Part shown: piece after piece, positions 13,427 to 56,951 of the stretch | How the letters are laid out: each line of letters starts with the position of its first letter | How positions within the stretch are numbered: the stretch's first letter is position 1 | DNA from: Gemmatimonas groenlandica | GTDB lineage: Bacteria; Gemmatimonadota; Gemmatimonadetes; Gemmatimonadales; Gemmatimonadaceae | Direction: 5' to 3' | Length of the DNA stretch: 64,000 nucleotides | NCBI RefSeq assembly: GCF_013004105.1 | Contig: NZ_CP053085.1 | Span: 2,790,001 to 2,854,000 of the forward strand | Notes under the pieces: generated by a model | Databases searched by the model: none | What the model was told of the DNA's origin: nothing | The model's input: the letters and a program-made list of their open reading frames with translations, nothing else | Position numbers and translations under genes: made by a program

Positions 13427-15107
<1,681 letters not shown>

Positions 15108-15114
15108 GGTATCC

Positions 15115-15681
15115 GTGTCGTTGCTCGATATTCACGTCCTGGGTTCGCCGATCCTCCGCCAGGAGACGGAACGGGTCGAGCAGTTCACGCCGGAGTTGCG
15201 GCGGCTCGTGGACGACATGTTCGACACGATGGACAAGGCCAAGGGCGTCGGACTCGCGGCGCCGCAGGTCGGACGGCGTGAACGGCTGGCGGTTGTCGAG
15301 GTGGACGACGCGCGGCTCGTCGTCATCAACCCCGAGATCATCCTGAAGGAAGGCTCGGTGCGCGGCGAGGAAGGCTGTCTCTCGATTCCCGAAGTGTACG
15401 CCGACGTGGACCGGTTCTCGCGCGTGATCGTGCGAGCGCAGGACATCGACGGCATCTGGTACGAAGTGGAGGGCACCGAACTGCTGGGACGGTGCCTGCA
15501 GCACGAAATCGACCACTTGCACGGCCGGTTGTTCACCGACCGTCTCAGTCTGCTCAAGCGTCGCGCCGCGATGCGCGAGTGGGAGTACGAGAAGGCCAAG
15601 TACCCGAAGCTCCTGCGCGTGCTCCCAGTCGGCGATCTGCCGAAAGAGCGCGACGCCACGACATCCGACTCGAAGACATAA
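15115..15681 (+). CDS. def: Peptide deformylase
   Basis: 188 residues from the GTG at 15115, 7 bp after yajC. It removes the formyl group from nascent proteins using a bound metal. All three class motifs are present: GVGLAAPQVG (47-53 region), EGCLSIP with metal-ligand Cys88, and QHEIDHLHG with His130, Glu131 and His134. A charged C-terminal tail extends beyond the usual end. It pairs functionally with fmt, which follows after 18 bp. Confidence 0.95.
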   Translation: MSLLDIHVLGSPILRQETERVEQFTPELRRLVDDMFDTMDKAKGVGLAAPQVGRRERLAVVEVDDARLVVINPEIILKEGSVRGEEGCLSIPEVYADVDRFSRVIVRAQDIDGIWYEVEGTELLGRCLQHEIDHLHGRLFTDRLSLLKRRAAMREWEYEKAKYPKLLRVLPVGDLPKERDATTSDSKT

Positions 15682-15699
15682 CCGGAGACCGCCCCACCC

Positions 15700-16665
15700 G
15701 TGCGCATTCTCTTCTGGGGCACTCCCGACTTCGCCGTTCCGCCGCTCCGCGCGCTGATTGGCGAAGGACACGACGTGGTCGGCGTCGTCACGCAGCCCGA
15801 CAAGCCGCGCGGCCGGTCGCGCACGCAGCTCGACCCGTCGCCGGTCAAACGTGTCGCGCTCGAGGAGGGCATCCCCGTGCTTCAGCCCGAGAAGCCACGG
15901 GGCGACGAGTTCCTCGACGCCATGCGCGCGCTCGCCCCGGATCTGTCGGTCGTGGTCGCCTACGGATGCATCCTGCCCAAGGCCGTGATCGATCTGCCGG
16001 CGCTCGGCACGATCAACATTCACGGCTCGATCCTGCCCGCCCTGCGCGGGGCGGCCCCCATTCAGGCCGCCATTCTCGAAGGCATGTCGGAAACGGGGAT
16101 CACGATCATGCAGATGGTGCCCGCGCTCGACGCCGGCGACATGCTGCATGTGCTGCGCACGCCGATCGGATCCGACGAGACGTACGGTGAGCTGCACGAT
16201 CGGCTCTCCGAACTCGGGGCCCTGGCCATCGTCCAGGCATTGGCCATGATCGATGCGCAGATCATGCAGCCGATCGCACAGGACGACACGCAGTCGACCT
16301 ACGCCTCGAAGATCGATCGCGATATGGCGCGTCTTGATTTCACCTGGTCGGCCGAGCGCGTGTCCCGTGTAACGCGCGCCTTCGATCCACGCCCGGGGGC
16401 GTTCGCCACCCTCCGCGGTGTGGAGACGAAGCTGTTCAGCGTGCGCGTCGTCGGCGACGGCACGAACGACGATCTCGACGAGCCCACATTGGCGAGCCCG
16501 CCGGGCACGGTGCGTTCAGCAAACGACGACGGACTGTTGGTCCGCTGCGGCGAAGGCGCCGTACGATTCATGGATGTCCAACCCAGCGGCAAGCCGCGCA
16601 TGACCGCTGCCTCCCTGGCACGCGGTCGCGGTGTGTCAGTCGGCGATCTGCTCGAGCCCGCGTGA
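15700..16665 (+). CDS. fmt: Methionyl-tRNA formyltransferase
   Basis: 321 residues from a GTG at 15700. It formylates initiator Met-tRNA with 10-formyl-THF. N-terminal FWGTPDFAVPPLRALI, the catalytic region INIHGSILPALRGAAPIQ (Asn, His and the SLLP-like loop) and ITIMQMVPALDAGDML, plus a C-terminal OB domain (IDRDMARLDFTWSAERVSR; FDPRPGAFATL), give full family coverage. It sits in the def-fmt-rsmB order seen in many bacteria. Confidence 0.95.
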   Translation: MRILFWGTPDFAVPPLRALIGEGHDVVGVVTQPDKPRGRSRTQLDPSPVKRVALEEGIPVLQPEKPRGDEFLDAMRALAPDLSVVVAYGCILPKAVIDLPALGTINIHGSILPALRGAAPIQAAILEGMSETGITIMQMVPALDAGDMLHVLRTPIGSDETYGELHDRLSELGALAIVQALAMIDAQIMQPIAQDDTQSTYASKIDRDMARLDFTWSAERVSRVTRAFDPRPGAFATLRGVETKLFSVRVVGDGTNDDLDEPTLASPPGTVRSANDDGLLVRCGEGAVRFMDVQPSGKPRMTAASLARGRGVSVGDLLEPA

Positions 16666-16684
16666 AAAACTGCCCCAGAACCGA

Positions 16685-18031
16685 ATGATGGCCGTCGTCA
16701 ACACGAAGAAGCCGCACAACATGCTGGGCATCACCGAGTCGCGTGCGTCCGCGGCGATGGTGCTGGCCGACCTGCGCAATGGTGCGATGCTCGACGCCGC
16801 CTTCGAACGGTACGTGGCGCCGCTCGATGCGCGCGACCGTCGATGGGTGCAAGAGTTGCTCTGGGGTATGCTGCGCACGCGCAACCGTCTCGATGCGATC
16901 CTGGCCGAACGCGTACGCGGTGGCATCGCCAAGATCGACGTCGACGTAGCCGACTTGCTGCGTCTCGGCGCCTATCAGCTGCTTAGCATGGGGAGCGTGC
17001 CGGCCTATGCCGCCATCGGACAGACGGTCGAACTCACCAAGCGGCGTCACGGTATCGGTGCCAGCAAGCTGGTGAACGCCGTGCTGCGCCGGATCGATCG
17101 CGAACGTGAAACGATCGAACCGCCGGTACCGGGCGAACCGTTGGAAGCGCTGGCACAGCAGTACTCGCATCCGCGCTGGGTGATTTCGCGCTGGGTCGAT
17201 CGCTGGGGCATGGACGCCACCGAGCGACTGTTGGCGGTGAACAACGAGCCGGCGTCGATCACCGTGCGGCCCTATGGCGTGGACCGCGAGCAACTCGACG
17301 GCATGCTCACCGGAGCCGGCGTGACCACGCACGACGTACCGCTGGTGCCCGACTCCATTCGACTCGGGCCCGGCGTCGCACTCACTGAGCTCGGCGCGTT
17401 CAAGCAGGGCGCGTTCTTCGTGCAGGATCCCGCGGCGACGCTCGTGGCGAAGTACGCGTATGTGCCAGAGGGCGGCGTGGTGGTCGACCTTTGCGCCGCG
17501 CCAGGTGGCAAGGCGCTCGAGCTGTCGCGTCGCGCGCGGCTGGTGTTCGCGGCCGATGCCAAGATGGCCCGCGTGGAGCGCATGCTGACTGGCTTTGGCC
17601 GCCTCGACGCCACGAATCTGATTCCCATCGTGTGCGATGCGCGACATCCGGCGATCGGCGAGGCCGATGTCGTGGTAATCGACGTGCCGTGCACGGGCAC
17701 CGGCACCTTCCGCCGGCATCCGGATGCGCGCTGGCGCCTGCGGGTGTCCGATTTCGCCGTGTTGCCGGCGCTGCAGCGCGAAATCTTGCTCGCGGCCGCC
17801 TCGATGGTGAAGGCGGGTGGATTGTTGGTGTACAGCACCTGCTCGCTCGAACTCGAGGAAAACGACGACCAGATCGAGTCGTTTCTCGCGACGCACAGGG
17901 AGTTCACCTTGGAACCGCCCCCGCCGGGCACGGTACCTGAAGACGTGTTGGACAACGGCCTTCTCCGCGTGCTGCCGCAGCAGCACGGTACCGACGGCGC
18001 CTTTGCGGCGCGGTTACGGAGAGCCGTGTAA
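16685..18031 (+). CDS. rsmB: 16S rRNA (cytosine-967-C5)-methyltransferase RsmB
   Basis: 448 residues from the ATG at 16685, 19 bp after fmt. An N-terminal NusB-like RNA-binding domain (SRASAAMVLADLRNGAML...NRLDAILAERV) is joined to a Rossmann methyltransferase domain with the AdoMet loop VVDLCAAPGGKALEL, catalytic Cys in DVPCTGTGTFRRHPDARW, and the second Cys in LVYSTCSLELEEN. It methylates C967 of 16S rRNA. The stop TAA shares its last A with the ATG of the PASTA gene. Confidence 0.95.
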   Translation: MMAVVNTKKPHNMLGITESRASAAMVLADLRNGAMLDAAFERYVAPLDARDRRWVQELLWGMLRTRNRLDAILAERVRGGIAKIDVDVADLLRLGAYQLLSMGSVPAYAAIGQTVELTKRRHGIGASKLVNAVLRRIDRERETIEPPVPGEPLEALAQQYSHPRWVISRWVDRWGMDATERLLAVNNEPASITVRPYGVDREQLDGMLTGAGVTTHDVPLVPDSIRLGPGVALTELGAFKQGAFFVQDPAATLVAKYAYVPEGGVVVDLCAAPGGKALELSRRARLVFAADAKMARVERMLTGFGRLDATNLIPIVCDARHPAIGEADVVVIDVPCTGTGTFRRHPDARWRLRVSDFAVLPALQREILLAAASMVKAGGLLVYSTCSLELEENDDQIESFLATHREFTLEPPPPGTVPEDVLDNGLLRVLPQQHGTDGAFAARLRRAV

Positions 18032-25549: not shown

Positions 25550-26238
25550 GCGAGGATCGCCGACACGACGGCGTCGGTGTCGGCGAGGTTGGCGAACACC
25601 GCTGCCGGATTGTGCGCGGCCAGATCCTCGGTGCTGTACCGACCGGTGGCGACGCCGATTGCCCGCACGCCGAGCGAACGTCCGCAGTGAATATCCGCCG
25701 GCGTATCACCGATGATCACAATGCGATCGCCGGCGATATCGAGGCCGAGCAGGTCGAGGGCACGGCGCTGCGCGACGGCCGGCAACTCGGGACGGTCTTC
25801 GTGATCGCAGCCGAAGGCGTTGACGCGGAACTGGTCGAAGTCGACCTGCACGGCCTTCAGCTTGGCGCGTGCCCCCCGCTCGATATTCCCCGTGAGCAAT
25901 CCCAGCGTGACATCGCTCTTGCCGCGCAGTGCGTCGAGCAGCGGTGGTATGCCGTCGCACAACCGGGCCGGCGTTACCCCTTCCCGCGTGAGTTCGCTTT
26001 GGAGGCCGTGCACGTATTCGTTGAGCAAGTCGTCGAGCCGACTGGAGATCGTGGCGTCGGTGAAGCCAGCTTCGCGCATCTGTTCACGCGCGATCTGCCG
26101 GTCGGTTTTTCCGTCGTAACGATAACTGGTATCACCGGTCGTGCCGAACACGCGCAACAAGGCGTTCTCCATGGCGCGGCGGCCAGCGCCGTCGGACCAA
26201 AGCAGAGTGCCGTCGATATCGAACAAAACGAGCTTCAC
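25546..26238 (-). CDS. HAD-family phosphatase (phosphoglycolate phosphatase-like)
   Basis: 230 residues from a GTG that overlaps the stop of the EamA gene. Complete HAD motifs: LVLFDIDGTLLWSDG (nucleophile Asp and acid/base Asp), TLGLLTGN (motif II Thr), and IVIIGDTPADIHCGR (motif IV), with a helical cap between. It probably dephosphorylates a small metabolite such as 2-phosphoglycolate or a nucleotide. In contrast to the HAD at 55044, its catalytic residues are intact, so it could be the real Gph-type enzyme of this genome. Confidence 0.88.
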   Translation of the reverse strand: MKLVLFDIDGTLLWSDGAGRRAMENALLRVFGTTGDTSYRYDGKTDRQIAREQMREAGFTDATISSRLDDLLNEYVHGLQSELTREGVTPARLCDGIPPLLDALRGKSDVTLGLLTGNIERGARAKLKAVQVDFDQFRVNAFGCDHEDRPELPAVAQRRALDLLGLDIAGDRIVIIGDTPADIHCGRSLGVRAIGVATGRYSTEDLAAHNPAAVFANLADTDAVVSAILA

Positions 26239-50986: not shown

Positions 50987-52402
50987 ATGCGCGATGCCCT
51001 GCTCGCCACGCTCTCCGCCATCGTCGGCCCTCGCTGGGTGAAATCCCGCGCGCCCGAACTCGTCGCCTATGACGCCGACGGGCTCCCGGGATATCGCGCG
51101 CTTCCCAACCTCGCCGTCTTTCCCGGCACGCAGAGCGAAGTCGTGGCCGTCGTGAAGGCATTGGCCGCCGCCGGTGTCTCGTTCGTGCCGCGCGGTGCCG
51201 GTACCGGACTCTCCGGCGGTGCACTGGCCAATGATGTCGTGCTGCTCGGCCTCAATCGTCTCACACAGATTCTCCGCGTCGATCCGGTAAATCGCATCGC
51301 CGTGGTCGAACCTGGCGTGGTGAACGCAAAACTGTCGCGCGCCGTGGCGCCGTATGGATTACAGTACGCCCCCGATCCGTCGAGTCAGAGCGTGTGCACG
51401 ATCGGCGGCAACGTGGCCGAGAATGCCGGCGGACCGCACTGTCTCAAGTATGGCGTCACGCTCAATCATGTCGTCGAGTGTCTGGTCGTCCTTCCCGACG
51501 GCCGTTTCATTCGCGCGGGCTCGGCCTTCGGCGAGTCCGATGAGTACGACGTGCTCGGCCTGTTCGTCGGCAGTGAAGGCTGCTTCGGCGTCGCGACGGA
51601 AATCACGGTGCGACTCGTGCCGCTGCCCGACAGCGTGCACACGATGCTCGCCGACTTCCCAAGCGTCAACGCCGCCGCGCGCGCGGTGTCACGCATCGTC
51701 GCCACCGGTATCGTGCCTGCCGCGCTCGAGATGATGGACAACGCCACCATTCGCGCCGTCGAAGCCTCGATCTACGCCGCCGGCTACCCCACCGACGCCG
51801 CCGCCGTCCTGCTCTGCGAAGTCGATGGCATCGCCGACGGACTCGACGAAGACGTGGCGATCATTCGCGAGTGCTGCATGGAATCCGGCGCCCGCAACGT
51901 GCTGGTGGCCTCCACCGAAGCCGATCGCGTTCGTCTCTGGCAAGGACGCAAGAAAGCCTTCGGCGCCATGGGCCGTATCGCGCCATCGCTTGTCGTGCAG
52001 GACGCCGTCGTGCCGCGCACACGATTGCCCGATGTGCTCGAAACGATTCACGAAATCGCCACGCGATACGGCGTGCAGGTGTGCAACGTGTTTCATGCCG
52101 GCGACGGCAACCTCCACCCCAACATCCCCTACGACGCCAACGACGCCGACGCCTCCGCGCGCGTCCACGCCGCGATGTCGGAGATCATGCTCGCCTGCAT
52201 CGCCGCCGGCGGCACCATTACCGGCGAACACGGCGTCGGGCTCGACAAGCTCCCGTACATGGAGAGCCTGTTCACCGCCGAATCACTGTCGGCCATGTGC
52301 ACCATCCGCGACGTCTTCGATCCCGACCGGCGCGCGAATCCCGGCAAGGTGGTGCCGGTGCACAGTTGCAAAGAATGGCATCGCGGGGGCAACCGTGCGT
52401 AA
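50987..52402 (+). CDS. glcD: Glycolate oxidase subunit GlcD (FAD-linked)
   Basis: 471 residues. The FAD-binding PCMH domain has FVPRGAGTGLSGGALA and CTIGGNVAENAGGPHCLKYG, and the C-terminal oxidase domain has FHAGDGNLHPNI and GTITGEHGVGLDKL, all typical of GlcD and D-lactate dehydrogenases. With glcE and glcF it oxidises glycolate to glyoxylate at the membrane. First gene of the glc cluster. Confidence 0.93.
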   Translation: MRDALLATLSAIVGPRWVKSRAPELVAYDADGLPGYRALPNLAVFPGTQSEVVAVVKALAAAGVSFVPRGAGTGLSGGALANDVVLLGLNRLTQILRVDPVNRIAVVEPGVVNAKLSRAVAPYGLQYAPDPSSQSVCTIGGNVAENAGGPHCLKYGVTLNHVVECLVVLPDGRFIRAGSAFGESDEYDVLGLFVGSEGCFGVATEITVRLVPLPDSVHTMLADFPSVNAAARAVSRIVATGIVPAALEMMDNATIRAVEASIYAAGYPTDAAAVLLCEVDGIADGLDEDVAIIRECCMESGARNVLVASTEADRVRLWQGRKKAFGAMGRIAPSLVVQDAVVPRTRLPDVLETIHEIATRYGVQVCNVFHAGDGNLHPNIPYDANDADASARVHAAMSEIMLACIAAGGTITGEHGVGLDKLPYMESLFTAESLSAMCTIRDVFDPDRRANPGKVVPVHSCKEWHRGGNRA

Positions 52403-52600: not shown

Positions 52601-53728
52601 ATGGAGACGTCCGACATCTCCAATGCCATCGCCAGCGCGATCGCCAGCCCCACAGTGGTCCGGGCGGTCGGCTCCGGCACGTGGCTACACGGCGGCCCCG
52701 TGGAGAACGATGCCACTGCCACCGTGGTGAAGCCTCGCGGCGGCGTGATCGAGTACACCCCGGGTGATCTCGTGATCAGTGTGCACGCGGGCACGACACT
52801 GGAGGAGCTCTCGGCGACGTGCGCCGTCAGCGGCCAGATGCTGGCCATCGCCCCGTATGGCTCACCGCGGTCCACCATCGGCGCCGTAGTCGCGACGGCA
52901 ACAGCGGCACCGTTGGCGTACGACGACCTCGCCATCCGCGATCTCGTGCTCGGCCTCACCGTCGTCACCGGAACGGGAGATATCGTGCGCGTCGGTGGCA
53001 AGGTCGTAAAGAACGTGGCAGGCTTTGACCTCGTGCGCCTCAACACGGGCGCGTTCGGAACGCTCGGTGTGATCACCGAGGTCAACCTGCGGTTGCACGC
53101 GAAGCCAAGTATGGATCATGTGGTCACGGGCACGCTGGACGGGTCACCGTGGGATTGGGTACCGCGTCTCATCGCGAACCGTGCCCCGTTGCCGATGTTG
53201 GTGCGACTCGCGCCCGATGAACCGGCGCAACTCTTTGCCCGTTGCACCGGCAATGGTGCGCGCGCGTCGGCGTTGCGCGGCATCATGCAGTCGTACGGCG
53301 TGCGCAATGCGTTTACGGTCGGGCCCTCCGACACCAGCAGCGCCCATGAGCAGGTGCCGATGATCGCCGCGCTGCGTCATGTGCCGGACCACGCATTGGT
53401 GCTACGCATTCGCACCGAGCTGTCCGGTGGGGATGCGATGCTCGAACATGTGCGCAAACTCCTTCCCGACGCCACGCTGCTGTACAATCCGTCGCGTGGA
53501 TCGGTTCGCGTGGTTACGGACCCCGGACACGAAGATGACGTGCTGGTAGAGCAAATTGAGACGCAGTTCGGTCGCACCCCCGTGCACTATTCGCTGGTGG
53601 CGGAACAAGGAGCACCTCCCCGCCACGACACCTCACATGTCCACGCGCCAATCAAGCGCGCCTTCGATCCGCATGGCGTCCTGAATCGCAGACGAGCCAC
53701 GTTCACGCCTAAACCCTACGTTCGATGA
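52601..53728 (+). CDS. glcE: Glycolate oxidase subunit GlcE (FAD-binding)
   Basis: 375 residues. Shorter FAD-binding PCMH protein: AVGSGTWLHGGPVEND, LVISVHAGTTLEELSATCA, GQMLAIAPYGSPRSTIGAVVATATAAPL, and VRVGGKVVKNVAGFDLVRLNTGAFGTLGVITEVNLRL, the classic GlcE centre. It carries the second flavin of the GlcDEF complex. It overlaps glcF by 4 bp (ATGA). Confidence 0.92.
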   Translation: METSDISNAIASAIASPTVVRAVGSGTWLHGGPVENDATATVVKPRGGVIEYTPGDLVISVHAGTTLEELSATCAVSGQMLAIAPYGSPRSTIGAVVATATAAPLAYDDLAIRDLVLGLTVVTGTGDIVRVGGKVVKNVAGFDLVRLNTGAFGTLGVITEVNLRLHAKPSMDHVVTGTLDGSPWDWVPRLIANRAPLPMLVRLAPDEPAQLFARCTGNGARASALRGIMQSYGVRNAFTVGPSDTSSAHEQVPMIAALRHVPDHALVLRIRTELSGGDAMLEHVRKLLPDATLLYNPSRGSVRVVTDPGHEDDVLVEQIETQFGRTPVHYSLVAEQGAPPRHDTSHVHAPIKRAFDPHGVLNRRRATFTPKPYVR

Positions 53729-55047
53729 GCGGCGTGACGTCTGGCGCGTCGACTCCGCCTTCGTGTGCGCTACCCGGCACGCCGTTGGCCCTGGCCAGCA
53801 AAGGACTCGATGCCTGCGTGCATTGCGGCTTCTGCCTGCAAGCCTGTCCCACGTATGTGAATCTCGAAGACGAGAACGATTCGCCGCGCGGGCGGCTCGT
53901 GCTCATGCGTCGCATGCTCGAAGGCGACATCGCGCTCGACGATCCCACGACCGCGCAGCACATCGATCGCTGCCTGGGCTGTCGGGCCTGCGAGACTGCC
54001 TGTCCTTCGGGTGTCCCGTACGGCGATTTGCTCGAAGCCACGCGCGCCACCATGGCCCCAGTGCGCGGCGTGCCGTTCGTGGCCCGCGCCGTGCTTGCCG
54101 TATTCAAGCATCCGGTGCTGCTCCGCACCGCGTTGCTTGGCGCACGACTGTTCCGCGCCACGCGGTTGCCGCAGCTGCTCGCGCAGATCCTGCCGGCACG
54201 GCTCGCGTTCCCCATGGCGATGATTGCGTCCACCACACCGGCCAACTTGCGGTCGAGCGCTGTACGCACGACATCGAGCCGCACGTCCGTCACGCCGCCA
54301 TCGACACCGGCGGTCACGGCGACCTGCCTCACCGGCTGCGTGATGTCAGGCTTGTTTTCGCATGTGAACGACGCGACCGATCGGGTGCTCACGCACAACG
54401 GGTTTCAATTGCAGCACACGCGCGCACAGGGCTGTTGCGGCGCCTTACATGCGCATGCCGGCGATCTCGAGAGTGCACGCGCGCTGGCTCGCATCAACGT
54501 GGCCGCCTTCGAGCAGTCGGGCACCGATGTCATCGCCGTCAACTCCGCTGGCTGTGGCGCGATGCTCAAGCAGTACGGGCATCTGCTGCACGACGATCCC
54601 GCGTGGGCCGCACGGGCCGAGCGCGTCAGCGCGCGCACACGCGACATCTCGGAGTTGCTGGCCACCGTGGGACCCATCGCCGGCACCGCATCGGTGGCAC
54701 TGCGCGTGACGCATGATCCGCCCTGTCACCAGATGCACGCCCAGCGCGTGGTGTCGCCCCCACTGACAGTGTTGCGTGCGATTCCTGGACTCGCGCTCAT
54801 TCCACTCGAAGACGCCGATCAATGTTGCGGATCGGCTGGCATCTATAACCTCGTCGAGCCGGATACCTCCGACGCGGTACTCGCACCGAAGCTGGCACGC
54901 ATCGCCGAGAGTGGTGCCGACTGGGTGGCCACCGGAAACCCCGGGTGCATGATGCAGATCGGTGCCGGCCTGCTGCGCAGCAAGTCGCGCGCGCGTGTCG
55001 TGCATCCCATCGAACTGCTCGACGCGTCGTACGAGCACCGACCATGA
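53725..55047 (+). CDS. glcF: Glycolate oxidase iron-sulfur subunit GlcF
   Basis: 440 residues. Two [4Fe-4S] motifs, CVHCGFCLQACP (Cys31/34/37/41) and CLGCRACETACPSG (Cys83/86/89/93), then two CCG-type domains: QGCCGALHAHAGD and DQCCGSAGIYNLVEP, with the matching TGCV, AVNSAGCGAML and NPGCMMQI cysteines. It passes electrons from GlcDE to quinone. It overlaps the HAD-like gene by 4 bp. Confidence 0.94.
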   Translation: MSGVTSGASTPPSCALPGTPLALASKGLDACVHCGFCLQACPTYVNLEDENDSPRGRLVLMRRMLEGDIALDDPTTAQHIDRCLGCRACETACPSGVPYGDLLEATRATMAPVRGVPFVARAVLAVFKHPVLLRTALLGARLFRATRLPQLLAQILPARLAFPMAMIASTTPANLRSSAVRTTSSRTSVTPPSTPAVTATCLTGCVMSGLFSHVNDATDRVLTHNGFQLQHTRAQGCCGALHAHAGDLESARALARINVAAFEQSGTDVIAVNSAGCGAMLKQYGHLLHDDPAWAARAERVSARTRDISELLATVGPIAGTASVALRVTHDPPCHQMHAQRVVSPPLTVLRAIPGLALIPLEDADQCCGSAGIYNLVEPDTSDAVLAPKLARIAESGADWVATGNPGCMMQIGAGLLRSKSRARVVHPIELLDASYEHRP

Positions 55048-55688
55048 CTGTCGCCGGTGTCGGTCGGGTCACGATCGTGGCATTCGACGGCATCATCGCA
55101 GATACGCTACCACTGCGGGCGAGGGCGCTCGCCGACGCGATGGTGCTCGAGTGCGCGGCAACAGGTGTGGCCATCGACGCCGACGCGTTACGGACCACAT
55201 TGCTGCCGCTGGTGCCCGGGCGCACGTTCTCCGAGAGCATGGCGTCGGCCCTAGCATCAGTACCGGCGTTGCAGCACGATCGCATTCAGCACGATGTCAC
55301 ATTGCACGACATCATCGCGTTGCGAGCGCAGCACGCGTGGGCAGCCACCGTGGCGCACGGCGTACCACTTCACGACGGGGTCCTTGCCCGATTGCAGGCA
55401 CTAGTGGCGCGCGGAGTGCGGGTTGTCTTGCGCAGTGATTCTCAGCGCCGAGAGGTGGAACCGTTACTGCGCCTGGCCGGTCTTGAAGACAGCATGCTGT
55501 TTCTGCGCTGCGCCGATGATGTGCCGCGACTGACCGGTGCTCCGTCGTTGCAGGCCAGCTATGAAGCGATCGCCGTCCGCCTCGAGCGATTGCGGGTTCC
55601 GCGGGGACTTTGTGACGCAGTCGAGGCCTCCGGCGGAACGGCCGCGCTTGCTCTGGGGTTTTCAGCAGCGAGCCGCACGGTACTCTGA
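55044..55688 (+). CDS. HAD-like protein without the catalytic Asp, end of glc operon
   Basis: 214 residues. The fold pattern of phosphoglycolate phosphatase is recognisable (N-terminal motif, helical cap with VPGRTFSESMASAL, VVLRSDSQRREVEPLLRLAGL as motif II), but motif I, normally FDxDGTL, reads VAFDGIIAD. Aligned on Asp15-Gly16, the nucleophile position is Ala13. It is therefore probably not a phosphatase, or has another role such as regulating glycolate use. Its ATG overlaps the glcF stop, so it is made with GlcDEF. A complete HAD phosphatase is at 25546. Confidence 0.75.
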   Translation: MTVAGVGRVTIVAFDGIIADTLPLRARALADAMVLECAATGVAIDADALRTTLLPLVPGRTFSESMASALASVPALQHDRIQHDVTLHDIIALRAQHAWAATVAHGVPLHDGVLARLQALVARGVRVVLRSDSQRREVEPLLRLAGLEDSMLFLRCADDVPRLTGAPSLQASYEAIAVRLERLRVPRGLCDAVEASGGTAALALGFSAASRTVL

Positions 55689-55832: not shown

Positions 55833-56951
55833 GTGCTGTTGTCCAACTCTGACGCGATCTCCCCGAACTTCACGAGCCCGACGCCACCTGACGTGGCGCC
55901 GCCGTCGCTCGTGTATCCGGAGCCGTTGTCAGCCCATGACGCCGAAGCGTTCCTTGATCTGCGACGCGAATCGGCATGGTTCGAGTCGGCTGGCCAGTGG
56001 AGCACGTTTCGTGGACCGAAGGCCGCCGAAGCGTTGAATGGACTCGTCACCAACGACGTCACGCTGCTGCAACCCGGTGAAGGACTGCACGCCGCCGCGC
56101 TGACGCCGAAGGGCAAGGTGCTCTGCGACATGCTCATCTTCCGCATGGACGAAGAGACGTTCATGCTCACCGTGCTCCGCGCCTGCGCGCCGCAGTGGCT
56201 GGCCACGGCCCGCAAGTATGTGAATCCGCGTCTCGCGAAAGTCGAGGATGAATCGGACAAGTGGGCCACGTGGATGCTGTACGGCGCGCAAGCATCGAAA
56301 GCGGTCGCTGCCCTCGGCGGCGCCGCTCACACGGTCGAAGATCTTGGCGACGTGATGATGCAGGGGCTCGCCGAGTGGAAGCTGTGGCAGCATGGGCTCT
56401 GGAACATCGGGCCGGTCAATGTGCGACTCATTCGCGCGCCGCTGATGGGAACGACGCCGGGCTTCATCATCATGGCCGACGCGCGTGACGCCGAGATTGT
56501 GCGCCAGCGCCTCGAGAAGTCGGTGTACCGTCAAGCCACGCGAGCGGTGTGGAACATCGCGCGCGTGGAAGGTGGGCGGCCGGCGTGGGGCCTCGATATG
56601 GACGACAACACGATTCCGCAGGAAGCGAATCTTGATACGCTCGGCGCGATCTCGTTCACGAAGGGCTGCTACACAGGCCAGGAAACCGTGGCGCGTGTCC
56701 ACTTCCGCGGGCACGTGAATCGCCGCCTGCGCGGACTGCTCGGCGCGTCACCAATGCCGCAACACGGGCAGGTCGTGGACGCCACCGGCAAACTGGTCGG
56801 CGATGTGCGCAGCACGGTGATCTCGCCGCGCCTGGGGCCGATCGCGATCGCGATGCTGCGTCGGGAAGTGCAGGCGGGAGACACGGTGATCGTGGAAGGC
56901 ACCGAAGGACCGATCAGCGCCGAAGTGCGCGAACTTCCGTTCCCCGAGTAG
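55833..56951 (+). CDS. ygfZ: YgfZ/GcvT-family folate-binding protein
   Basis: 372 residues from GTG 55833; a TTG at 55839 with GAGGTG 5 bp upstream is equally plausible. The YgfZ hallmark KGCYTGQETVARVHFRGHVNRRLRG is present, with FRGPKAAEALNGLVTNDVTLLQPGEG in the first domain. It is related to the T-protein of glycine cleavage but, with the K-G-C-Y-x-G-Q-E loop, belongs to the IBA57/YgfZ group that helps maintain Fe-S enzymes such as MiaB using tetrahydrofolate. Stand-alone gene. Confidence 0.88.
   Translation: MLLSNSDAISPNFTSPTPPDVAPPSLVYPEPLSAHDAEAFLDLRRESAWFESAGQWSTFRGPKAAEALNGLVTNDVTLLQPGEGLHAAALTPKGKVLCDMLIFRMDEETFMLTVLRACAPQWLATARKYVNPRLAKVEDESDKWATWMLYGAQASKAVAALGGAAHTVEDLGDVMMQGLAEWKLWQHGLWNIGPVNVRLIRAPLMGTTPGFIIMADARDAEIVRQRLEKSVYRQATRAVWNIARVEGGRPAWGLDMDDNTIPQEANLDTLGAISFTKGCYTGQETVARVHFRGHVNRRLRGLLGASPMPQHGQVVDATGKLVGDVRSTVISPRLGPIAIAMLRREVQAGDTVIVEGTEGPISAEVRELPFPE

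Follow-up and report, generated by a model that had tools for sequence, protein, structure and literature searches.

The gene that directly follows glcF in Gemmatimonas groenlandica encodes a 214-aa HAD-like protein with alanine at the position of the catalytic nucleophile, and we consider it about an even chance that this product is a pseudo-phosphatase retained for a binding or accessory function in the GlcF-YgfZ unit. Without its nucleophile a HAD protein forms no aspartyl-phosphate, so that phosphoryl transfer of the HAD type by this protein appears very unlikely. Pseudophosphatases in general keep their fold and have the nucleophile substituted, which is also the combination seen here. 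The original prediction had proposed a HAD-like protein lacking its nucleophile that is encoded together with the glycolate oxidase GlcDEF; alignments of orthologues support such a non-catalytic protein, since Ala13 was confirmed and a non-acidic residue was found at this position in all 27 orthologues of the genus. The DNA analysed, in the following called the window, is a stretch of 64,000 nucleotides.

The glcDEF-ygfZ locus and the relatives of its HAD-like product

All genes of the locus are located on the plus strand. The glcD gene (50987..52402), coding for the FAD subunit of glycolate oxidase, was recognized by PF02913 and PF01565 and by GlcD models, whose cut-offs of 568 and 897 it missed with 468-480 bits; glcE (52601..53728) codes for the FAD-binding subunit (GlcE model 147 bits, below the cut-off of 284) and glcF (53725..55047) for the Fe-S subunit (GlcF model 295 bits, below the cut-off of 333). 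The gene of the HAD-like putative pseudo-phosphatase (55044..55688) starts with an ATG (55044-55046) that overlaps the glcF stop codon (55045-55047) in the sequence ATGA and, with glcD, glcE and glcF recognized upstream, it is encoded with the oxidase as had been proposed. It is followed by ygfZ (55833..56951, start codon uncertain), a CAF17/COG0354-like gene of Fe-S cluster maintenance, which gave 91.7 bits with TIGR03317 (cut-off 49). A search at E 10 of the genome, which consists of one contig of 5,179,092 bases, found no second copy of the HAD-like gene. The genes glcDEF and glcB have been reported in Gemmatimonadota, and the passages on glycolate in that report name no HAD gene (PMC10581226); in those parts of the open-access literature that were accessible, no description of such a HAD gene at glcF-ygfZ was found.

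Taken alone, the 214-aa protein is marginally HAD-like, with 26.2 bits for PF00702 (cut-off 26.4). The HAD_2 model was passed clearly by the six scanned relatives with Glu or Asp at the nucleophile position (47.6-93.9 bits), and two scanned Ala-type relatives gave no Pfam match at E 0.01. The protein is nevertheless a member of the HAD superfamily by fold and homology, because the orthologue series leads from clear HAD_2 proteins to the window protein, all encoded at the same gene position. For five less eroded relatives of the Glu and Asp types, the top NCBIfam match was TIGR02009, the model of the PGMB/YqaB subfamily, with 46.9-108.1 bits; one Ala-type relative gave 20.9 bits, the cut-off of 153 was reached by none of these, and the window protein itself did not match the model at E 1. 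The nearest solved structure for profiles of the Asp/Asn type (1.1e-27) and the Glu type (8.3e-24) was CbbY, a xylulose-1,5-bisphosphate phosphatase (PDB 4uar, 4uat, 4uau, 4uav), for which the accessible passages of one source describe catalysis on xylulose bisphosphate (PMC10212915). The rows of the structure-profile alignment A2 were chosen for Glu, so the invariant Glu of this alignment is no evidence. Compared with CbbY, the window protein has Ala at the nucleophile position, lacks the motif III Lys and has lost motif IV; compared with beta-phosphoglucomutase (beta-PGM) and the PGMB/YqaB proteins, the window's family has mostly Glu or Ala as nucleophile residue, and all scanned relatives score below the subfamily cut-off. 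Judged by these relatives, the lineage appears to belong to the beta-PGM/CbbY-like branch, which the window protein alone matches weakly.

The structure model of the window protein has a mean pLDDT of 70 with values under 50 for residues 1-13, 160-162, 165-167, and 190-214, and therefore no active-site geometry is claimed for it. Against known structures, VIA-align gave beta-PGM as the top row (Z 8.9, rmsd 3.6, 171 aligned), a predicted Gph structure (2hsz) with a Z of 8.7 among the top rows and CbbY with 8.0, and these scores lie little above a Z near 8, which alone can reflect merely a common arrangement. Foldseek found no match to the model at E 0.001 or better, and its top row, the CbbY-type At3g48420, had an E of only 0.013.

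Since the gene adjoins those of glycolate oxidase, it might be supposed to encode an active phosphoglycolate phosphatase misread as a pseudoenzyme, and the original prediction had described the protein as Gph-like. Gph represents a related HAD branch which by sequence is not the closest one: the window protein scored 15.0 and 16.9 bits with the Gph models, against cut-offs of 180 and 327, and on these scores its identification as Gph was rejected. The catalytic residues are lost as well, and the DxDG motif is intact in three other HAD proteins of the genome, so that the chance of an active Gph is close to nil. Sensing of 2-phosphoglycolate, which had been suggested along with the Gph assignment, likewise finds no specific support. 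The three other HAD proteins are all the PF13419 matches of the genome, each with DxDG at motif I, and one of them lies inside the window; the best of the three resembles PpaX and Gph and scores below the cut-offs of both. Because DxDG is kept in these three, ordinary HAD catalysis is probably available elsewhere in the cell. At 25651-26229 of the window (L160, minus strand), there is a HAD_2 protein with an intact DIDGT motif (40 bits).

Residues of the former active site

The residues of the window protein were compared with those encoded in a neighbourhood set of 149 loci, 106 of them with a HAD gene, from the window's genus, other genera of its family (f1), and the sister families f2 and f3. 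Motif I reads VAFDGIIAD (55077..55103), with Ala13 (GCA, 55080-55082) at the nucleophile position and Asp15 (55086-55088) at position +2, as placed by the alignments. Conservation of Ala13 among orthologues, the check that had been proposed for this gene, was high: Ala is present in 25 of the 27 genus orthologues, Gly in one, Leu in one, an acidic residue (Asp or Glu) in none, and Asp occupies +2 in all 27. As Ala, Gly, or Leu is found throughout the genus, a sequencing error or an accident of a single strain is an unlikely explanation of Ala13. In the other f1 genera (64 rows with aligned N-terminus), the nucleophile position is occupied by Glu (53), Ala (6), or Asp (5) and position +2 by Glu (47), Asp (15), or His (2), the motif III Lys is present in 40 of the 64 rows, and motifs II, III, and IV are all retained in 32 of the 53 Glu-type proteins. 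L072 and L126 were left out of this count and of the tree described below, because their aligned piece lacks the N-terminus. The sister families have Asp as nucleophile, Asn at +2, Ser in motif II, Lys in motif III, and Asp in motif IV, each in 13 of 13 rows, and D-x-N also occurs in two further sister-family loci. An intact DxDG in orthologues, which would have spoken against a non-catalytic protein, was thus found in part: the nucleophile Asp is present in the sister families, but it is accompanied by Asn at +2 in every row.

The alignment of Ala with the nucleophile is fixed by genus g34 alone, in which LDFDDVLAET, LEFHDLLVDT, and VAFDDVLANT align position for position and Asp, Glu, and Ala occupy one position without a gap. 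This series bears on the proposal that the protein is still an enzyme by other means, either through a Glu nucleophile in the Glu types or, in the Ala types, through an Asp15 that a two-residue deletion has shifted into place. In favour of this proposal, the 32 Glu-type proteins with complete motifs II to IV and the invariance of Asp15 can be cited. The deletion is ruled out by the gapless g34 series and would also be less simple than an exchange of Glu for Ala, for which a change of one base (GAG to GCG) suffices; moreover, the Ala types lack the motif III Lys and motif IV too, and we know of no HAD phosphatase with a Glu nucleophile. Altogether, catalysis by such means is highly improbable. 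In L070, L145, L149 (g28) and L053, L096 (g34), Asp occurs at the nucleophile position among Glu relatives and the residues of motifs III and IV have already been lost, which makes these rows apparent reversions without restored catalysis.

Beyond motif I, the window protein has retained some active-site positions and lost others. Arg25 (55116..55118) corresponds to Arg in all 85 family rows that were compared (a set without g34 and the two rows lacking the N-terminus) and to His in 13 of 13 sister-family rows. The motif II region comprises R130-S131-D132 (55431..55439), in which Ser131 preserves the motif II hydroxyl; the 27 genus orthologues have Ala (14), Gly (1), or Ser (12) at this position. 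The column of the motif III lysine contains Pro167 (55542..55544) in a loosely aligned region, and Lys is found at the aligned column in none of the 27 genus orthologues. The acidic pair of motif IV is replaced by SG at the two aligned columns, where the alignment is again loose; of the 27 genus orthologues, two have Asp and four have Glu at the second column. Ala-type proteins are also shortened at the C-terminus. Eight residues, D15, G16, R25, R130, D132, R135, D158, and D159 (D158-D159, 55515..55520), do not vary among the 31 Ala-type rows from g1 and g38. According to a comparison of g1 and g38 with the family, performed without g34, R130 and D132 are new invariants of the Ala type and D159 and R135 are old; D159 is present in 13 of 13 sister-family rows, most of which have Glu in place of D158. 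In the HAD topology, residues that follow the core strands line the edge of the active site, and most of the invariant residues follow such strands in the model (E11-13, E126-129, E151-153), which suggests that they are located at the old active-site edge.

Neighbours, losses and selection

The HAD-like gene was matched in 27 of the 30 genomes of the genus, including that of the window. The three genomes without a match are drafts with completeness values of 84, 79, and 70%; G002 gave no glcF match at 1e-40, and the glcF matches of G007 and G017, judged from their positions, apparently lie at contig ends. A clear case of absence was not found in the genus. In all 27 genus loci, ygfZ is located downstream of the HAD-like gene within about 0.9 kb, mostly less than 0.3 kb from the HAD match (about 0.5 kb in L018 and about 0.8 kb in L017). 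On the upstream side, glcF is at most 0.3 kb away in 22 of the 27 loci; in four of the remaining five, this distance is 2.2 to 12.1 kb within one contig, and G003 has glcF on other contigs. Proximity to glcF therefore holds for most of the genus, but ygfZ is the more constant neighbour, and where the unit was split the HAD-like gene stayed with ygfZ.

Outside the genus, no HAD gene lies between glcF and ygfZ in 34 of the 100 f1 loci that could be assessed, some of them from g28, g29, g34, and g36; the sister families lack it at 8 of 19 loci anchored on glcF and at 3 of 5 later ones. Since the gene is missing from many loci, the glcF-ygfZ unit works without it; in general, the HAD-like gene is dispensable across the family and the sister families. 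For these counts, absence meant that the profile matched no frame of at least 110 aa at E 0.001, and L137 was set aside as too short for a decision. Each set contains one neighbour by construction, so that a fair estimate of presence comes from the loci outside the genus: genus loci were found via the HAD protein itself, the other-genus loci via ygfZ (101 of 125 other-genus genomes with a ygfZ match, among them L028, which came via the HAD protein), and the sister-family loci via glcF (L098-L116) or the HAD protein (L029, L030).

Several side observations concern the arrangement of these genes. In genus g5 (L040, L067, L086, L139, and others) and in loci of g7, g8, g32, g35, g39, g44, and g48, ygfZ follows glcF directly or within about 0.3 kb, which makes glcF-ygfZ itself a pair conserved in the order, independent of the HAD gene. 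Gaps of about 830-930 bases that leave room for a further gene are present between glcF and ygfZ in L103 and L111 (sister family f2) and between glcF and the HAD gene in L098, L100, L102, and L108. In G029 (L117, G029:C1:905000-924500), the reverse strand at 15041-16813 carries HAD-like and YgfZ sequences in one open frame of 591 aa. It was considered as a Rosetta-stone fusion and set aside, because its HAD part contains no ATG, GTG, or TTG before motif I; expression as a single protein is putative. Roughly 12 kb separate this frame from glcF in L117; two frames in this interval, of 1094 aa and 469 aa, resemble SusC/SusD on visual inspection.

Selection on the gene was judged from codon positions and from omega (NG86, pairs with dS under 1). 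In seven close genus pairs, three of which lie among three genomes and are thus not fully independent, the pooled changes at codon positions 1, 2, and 3 were 84, 59, and 294 (1409 codons). The median omega was 0.29 in the window's genus (range 0.09-1.43, 28 pairs, one of them at 1.43), 0.19 in g27 (35 pairs), 0.18 in g2 (6 pairs), 0.28 in g46 (10 pairs), and 0.40 in g37 (25 pairs), and it was 0.26 over all 124 pairs; weak constraint was seen in g28 (0.57, 3 pairs), g29 (0.52, 2 pairs), and g38 (0.72, 1 pair). Between the window and L002-L009, omega ranged from 0.18 to 0.33 in the HAD gene and from 0.07 to 0.12 in glcF, and between the window and G025 the HAD proteins share 67% identity, the GlcF proteins 92%, and the YgfZ proteins 85%. 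Hence, the HAD gene is under purifying selection in most groups, which is weaker than that on glcF.

These data have to be weighed against the view that the gene is a relict on its way out, which after loss of catalysis is under relaxed selection and persists only through its conserved operon position. The fast divergence and the C-terminal shortening of the Ala type, the losses in 34 of 100 other-genus loci, the frame of G029 without a usual start codon, and the omega values of 0.5-0.7 in g28, g29, and g38, which come from few pairs, are in line with a relict; the codon-position pattern and the low omega (far under 1) of the closest pairs within the genus, the presence in 27 of 30 genus genomes with the remaining three being incomplete, and the eight invariant residues of the Ala type argue against it. 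We regard a relict as unlikely, albeit as an explanation to be taken seriously.

Order of events and possible functions

A tree of 104 rows was calculated with the motif I columns omitted and rooted on the sister families. The split between the sister families and f1 has a support of 100; as the method was a quick one and several branches are long, the details are soft. By parsimony, the ancestor of the family had Glu at the nucleophile position, Glu at +2, and Thr, Lys, and Asp in motifs II, III, and IV, and the ancestor of the window's genus and g38 had Ala or Leu at the nucleophile position and Asp at +2. Parsimony thus favours Glu as the ancestral state of the family and Ala as a later one. 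Ala is also found within g34; where Asp occurs in g28 and g34, it is located among Glu rows and is likely a reversion. That Asp came before Glu at the nucleophile position is suggested by its near-universal occurrence there in the HAD superfamily. The tree would fit either an Asn at +2 that was present before Glu or one that arose in the sister families alone. A link of HAD and ygfZ older than the window's order was rejected, as neither a HAD gene of this profile nor glcF was found upstream of ygfZ in 15 loci from genomes outside the order; this check covered 15 of these genomes and stretches of at most about 3.2 kb before ygfZ, two of which gave no tblastn match for ygfZ and one of which comprised only 462 bases.

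These states suggest the following course. A HAD protein of the beta-PGM/CbbY type would already have been associated with glcF and ygfZ in, or close to, the ancestor of the window's order. The sister-family forms would have retained the nucleophile and exchanged the general acid/base for Asn (D-x-N); in the family ancestor, E-x-E would have been combined with an otherwise intact active site; and A-x-D, reached in the genus of the window and in one other genus, would have been accompanied by the loss of motifs III and IV. The window protein would no longer be able to form an aspartyl-phosphate and presumably retains the fold and the Arg/Asp-rich former active site (D15, R25, R130, D132, R135, D158, D159).

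With such a site the protein would act by binding, and here YgfZ is the informative neighbour. In the accessible parts of two reports, YgfZ is described as a folate-binding factor for the assembly or repair of some Fe-S enzymes, some of which need it for full activity, and COG0354 genes as often clustered with genes of Fe-S proteins (PMC8593673, PMC3223725); the mode of action of YgfZ on Fe-S enzymes is presented there as still a hypothesis (PMC8593673). Because YgfZ serves Fe-S enzymes and GlcF is an Fe-S subunit, we favour for the HAD-like protein a role as accessory protein that may act together with YgfZ in assembly or repair of GlcF; as second choice, it could be a sensor of an anionic ligand for the GlcF-YgfZ unit.

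In its elaborated form, the sensor proposal assumes that a D-x-N site of the kind present in the sister families bound a sugar phosphate and turned it over slowly or not at all, and that Glu and then Ala turned the protein into a pure binder which reports a metabolite to the oxidase unit. It is suggested by the Asn that all 13 sister-family orthologues have at +2, by structural matches that include solved D10N complexes, namely CbbY with xylulose bisphosphate and beta-PGM with bisphosphates, and by motifs II-IV kept in 32 of 53 Glu types. For beta-PGM, the accessible passages of one report state that D10N mimics the protonated acid/base and cannot transfer the proton (PMC11283535). As the natural D-x-N equals these ligand-trapping D10N mutants of CbbY and beta-PGM, the sister-family forms may be slow or binding-only. 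Against the proposal stands the loss of the motif III Lys and the motif IV acids in the window's genus, which makes a phosphate site of the usual type unlikely there, and a D-x-N trap stage may never have occurred in this lineage, the ancestral +2 residue being ambiguous on the tree; such a sensor seems improbable to us. A related and rather doubtful proposal takes the family-wide exchange of Asp for Glu in an otherwise intact active site as a natural, selected, locked site, perhaps derived from a D10N-type ligand trap as in the sister families; the protein would then be a metabolite-responsive partner of YgfZ and GlcF, with a site rebuilt in the genus (Ala13, Arg130, Asp132) for a new ligand or protein contact.

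For a pseudo-phosphatase kept as accessory protein of the GlcF-YgfZ unit, annotation as HAD hydrolase would mislead in interpreting the glcF-ygfZ locus, and the protein is a specific candidate for a partner of YgfZ. In most cases, a pseudoenzyme is known only as a single end point. The gene described here would represent a HAD pseudoenzyme of which other stages of change are preserved in living relatives, and because intact, Glu-substituted, and Ala-substituted forms occur in one gene neighbourhood across related families, the stages of loss can be compared and each of them can be expressed.
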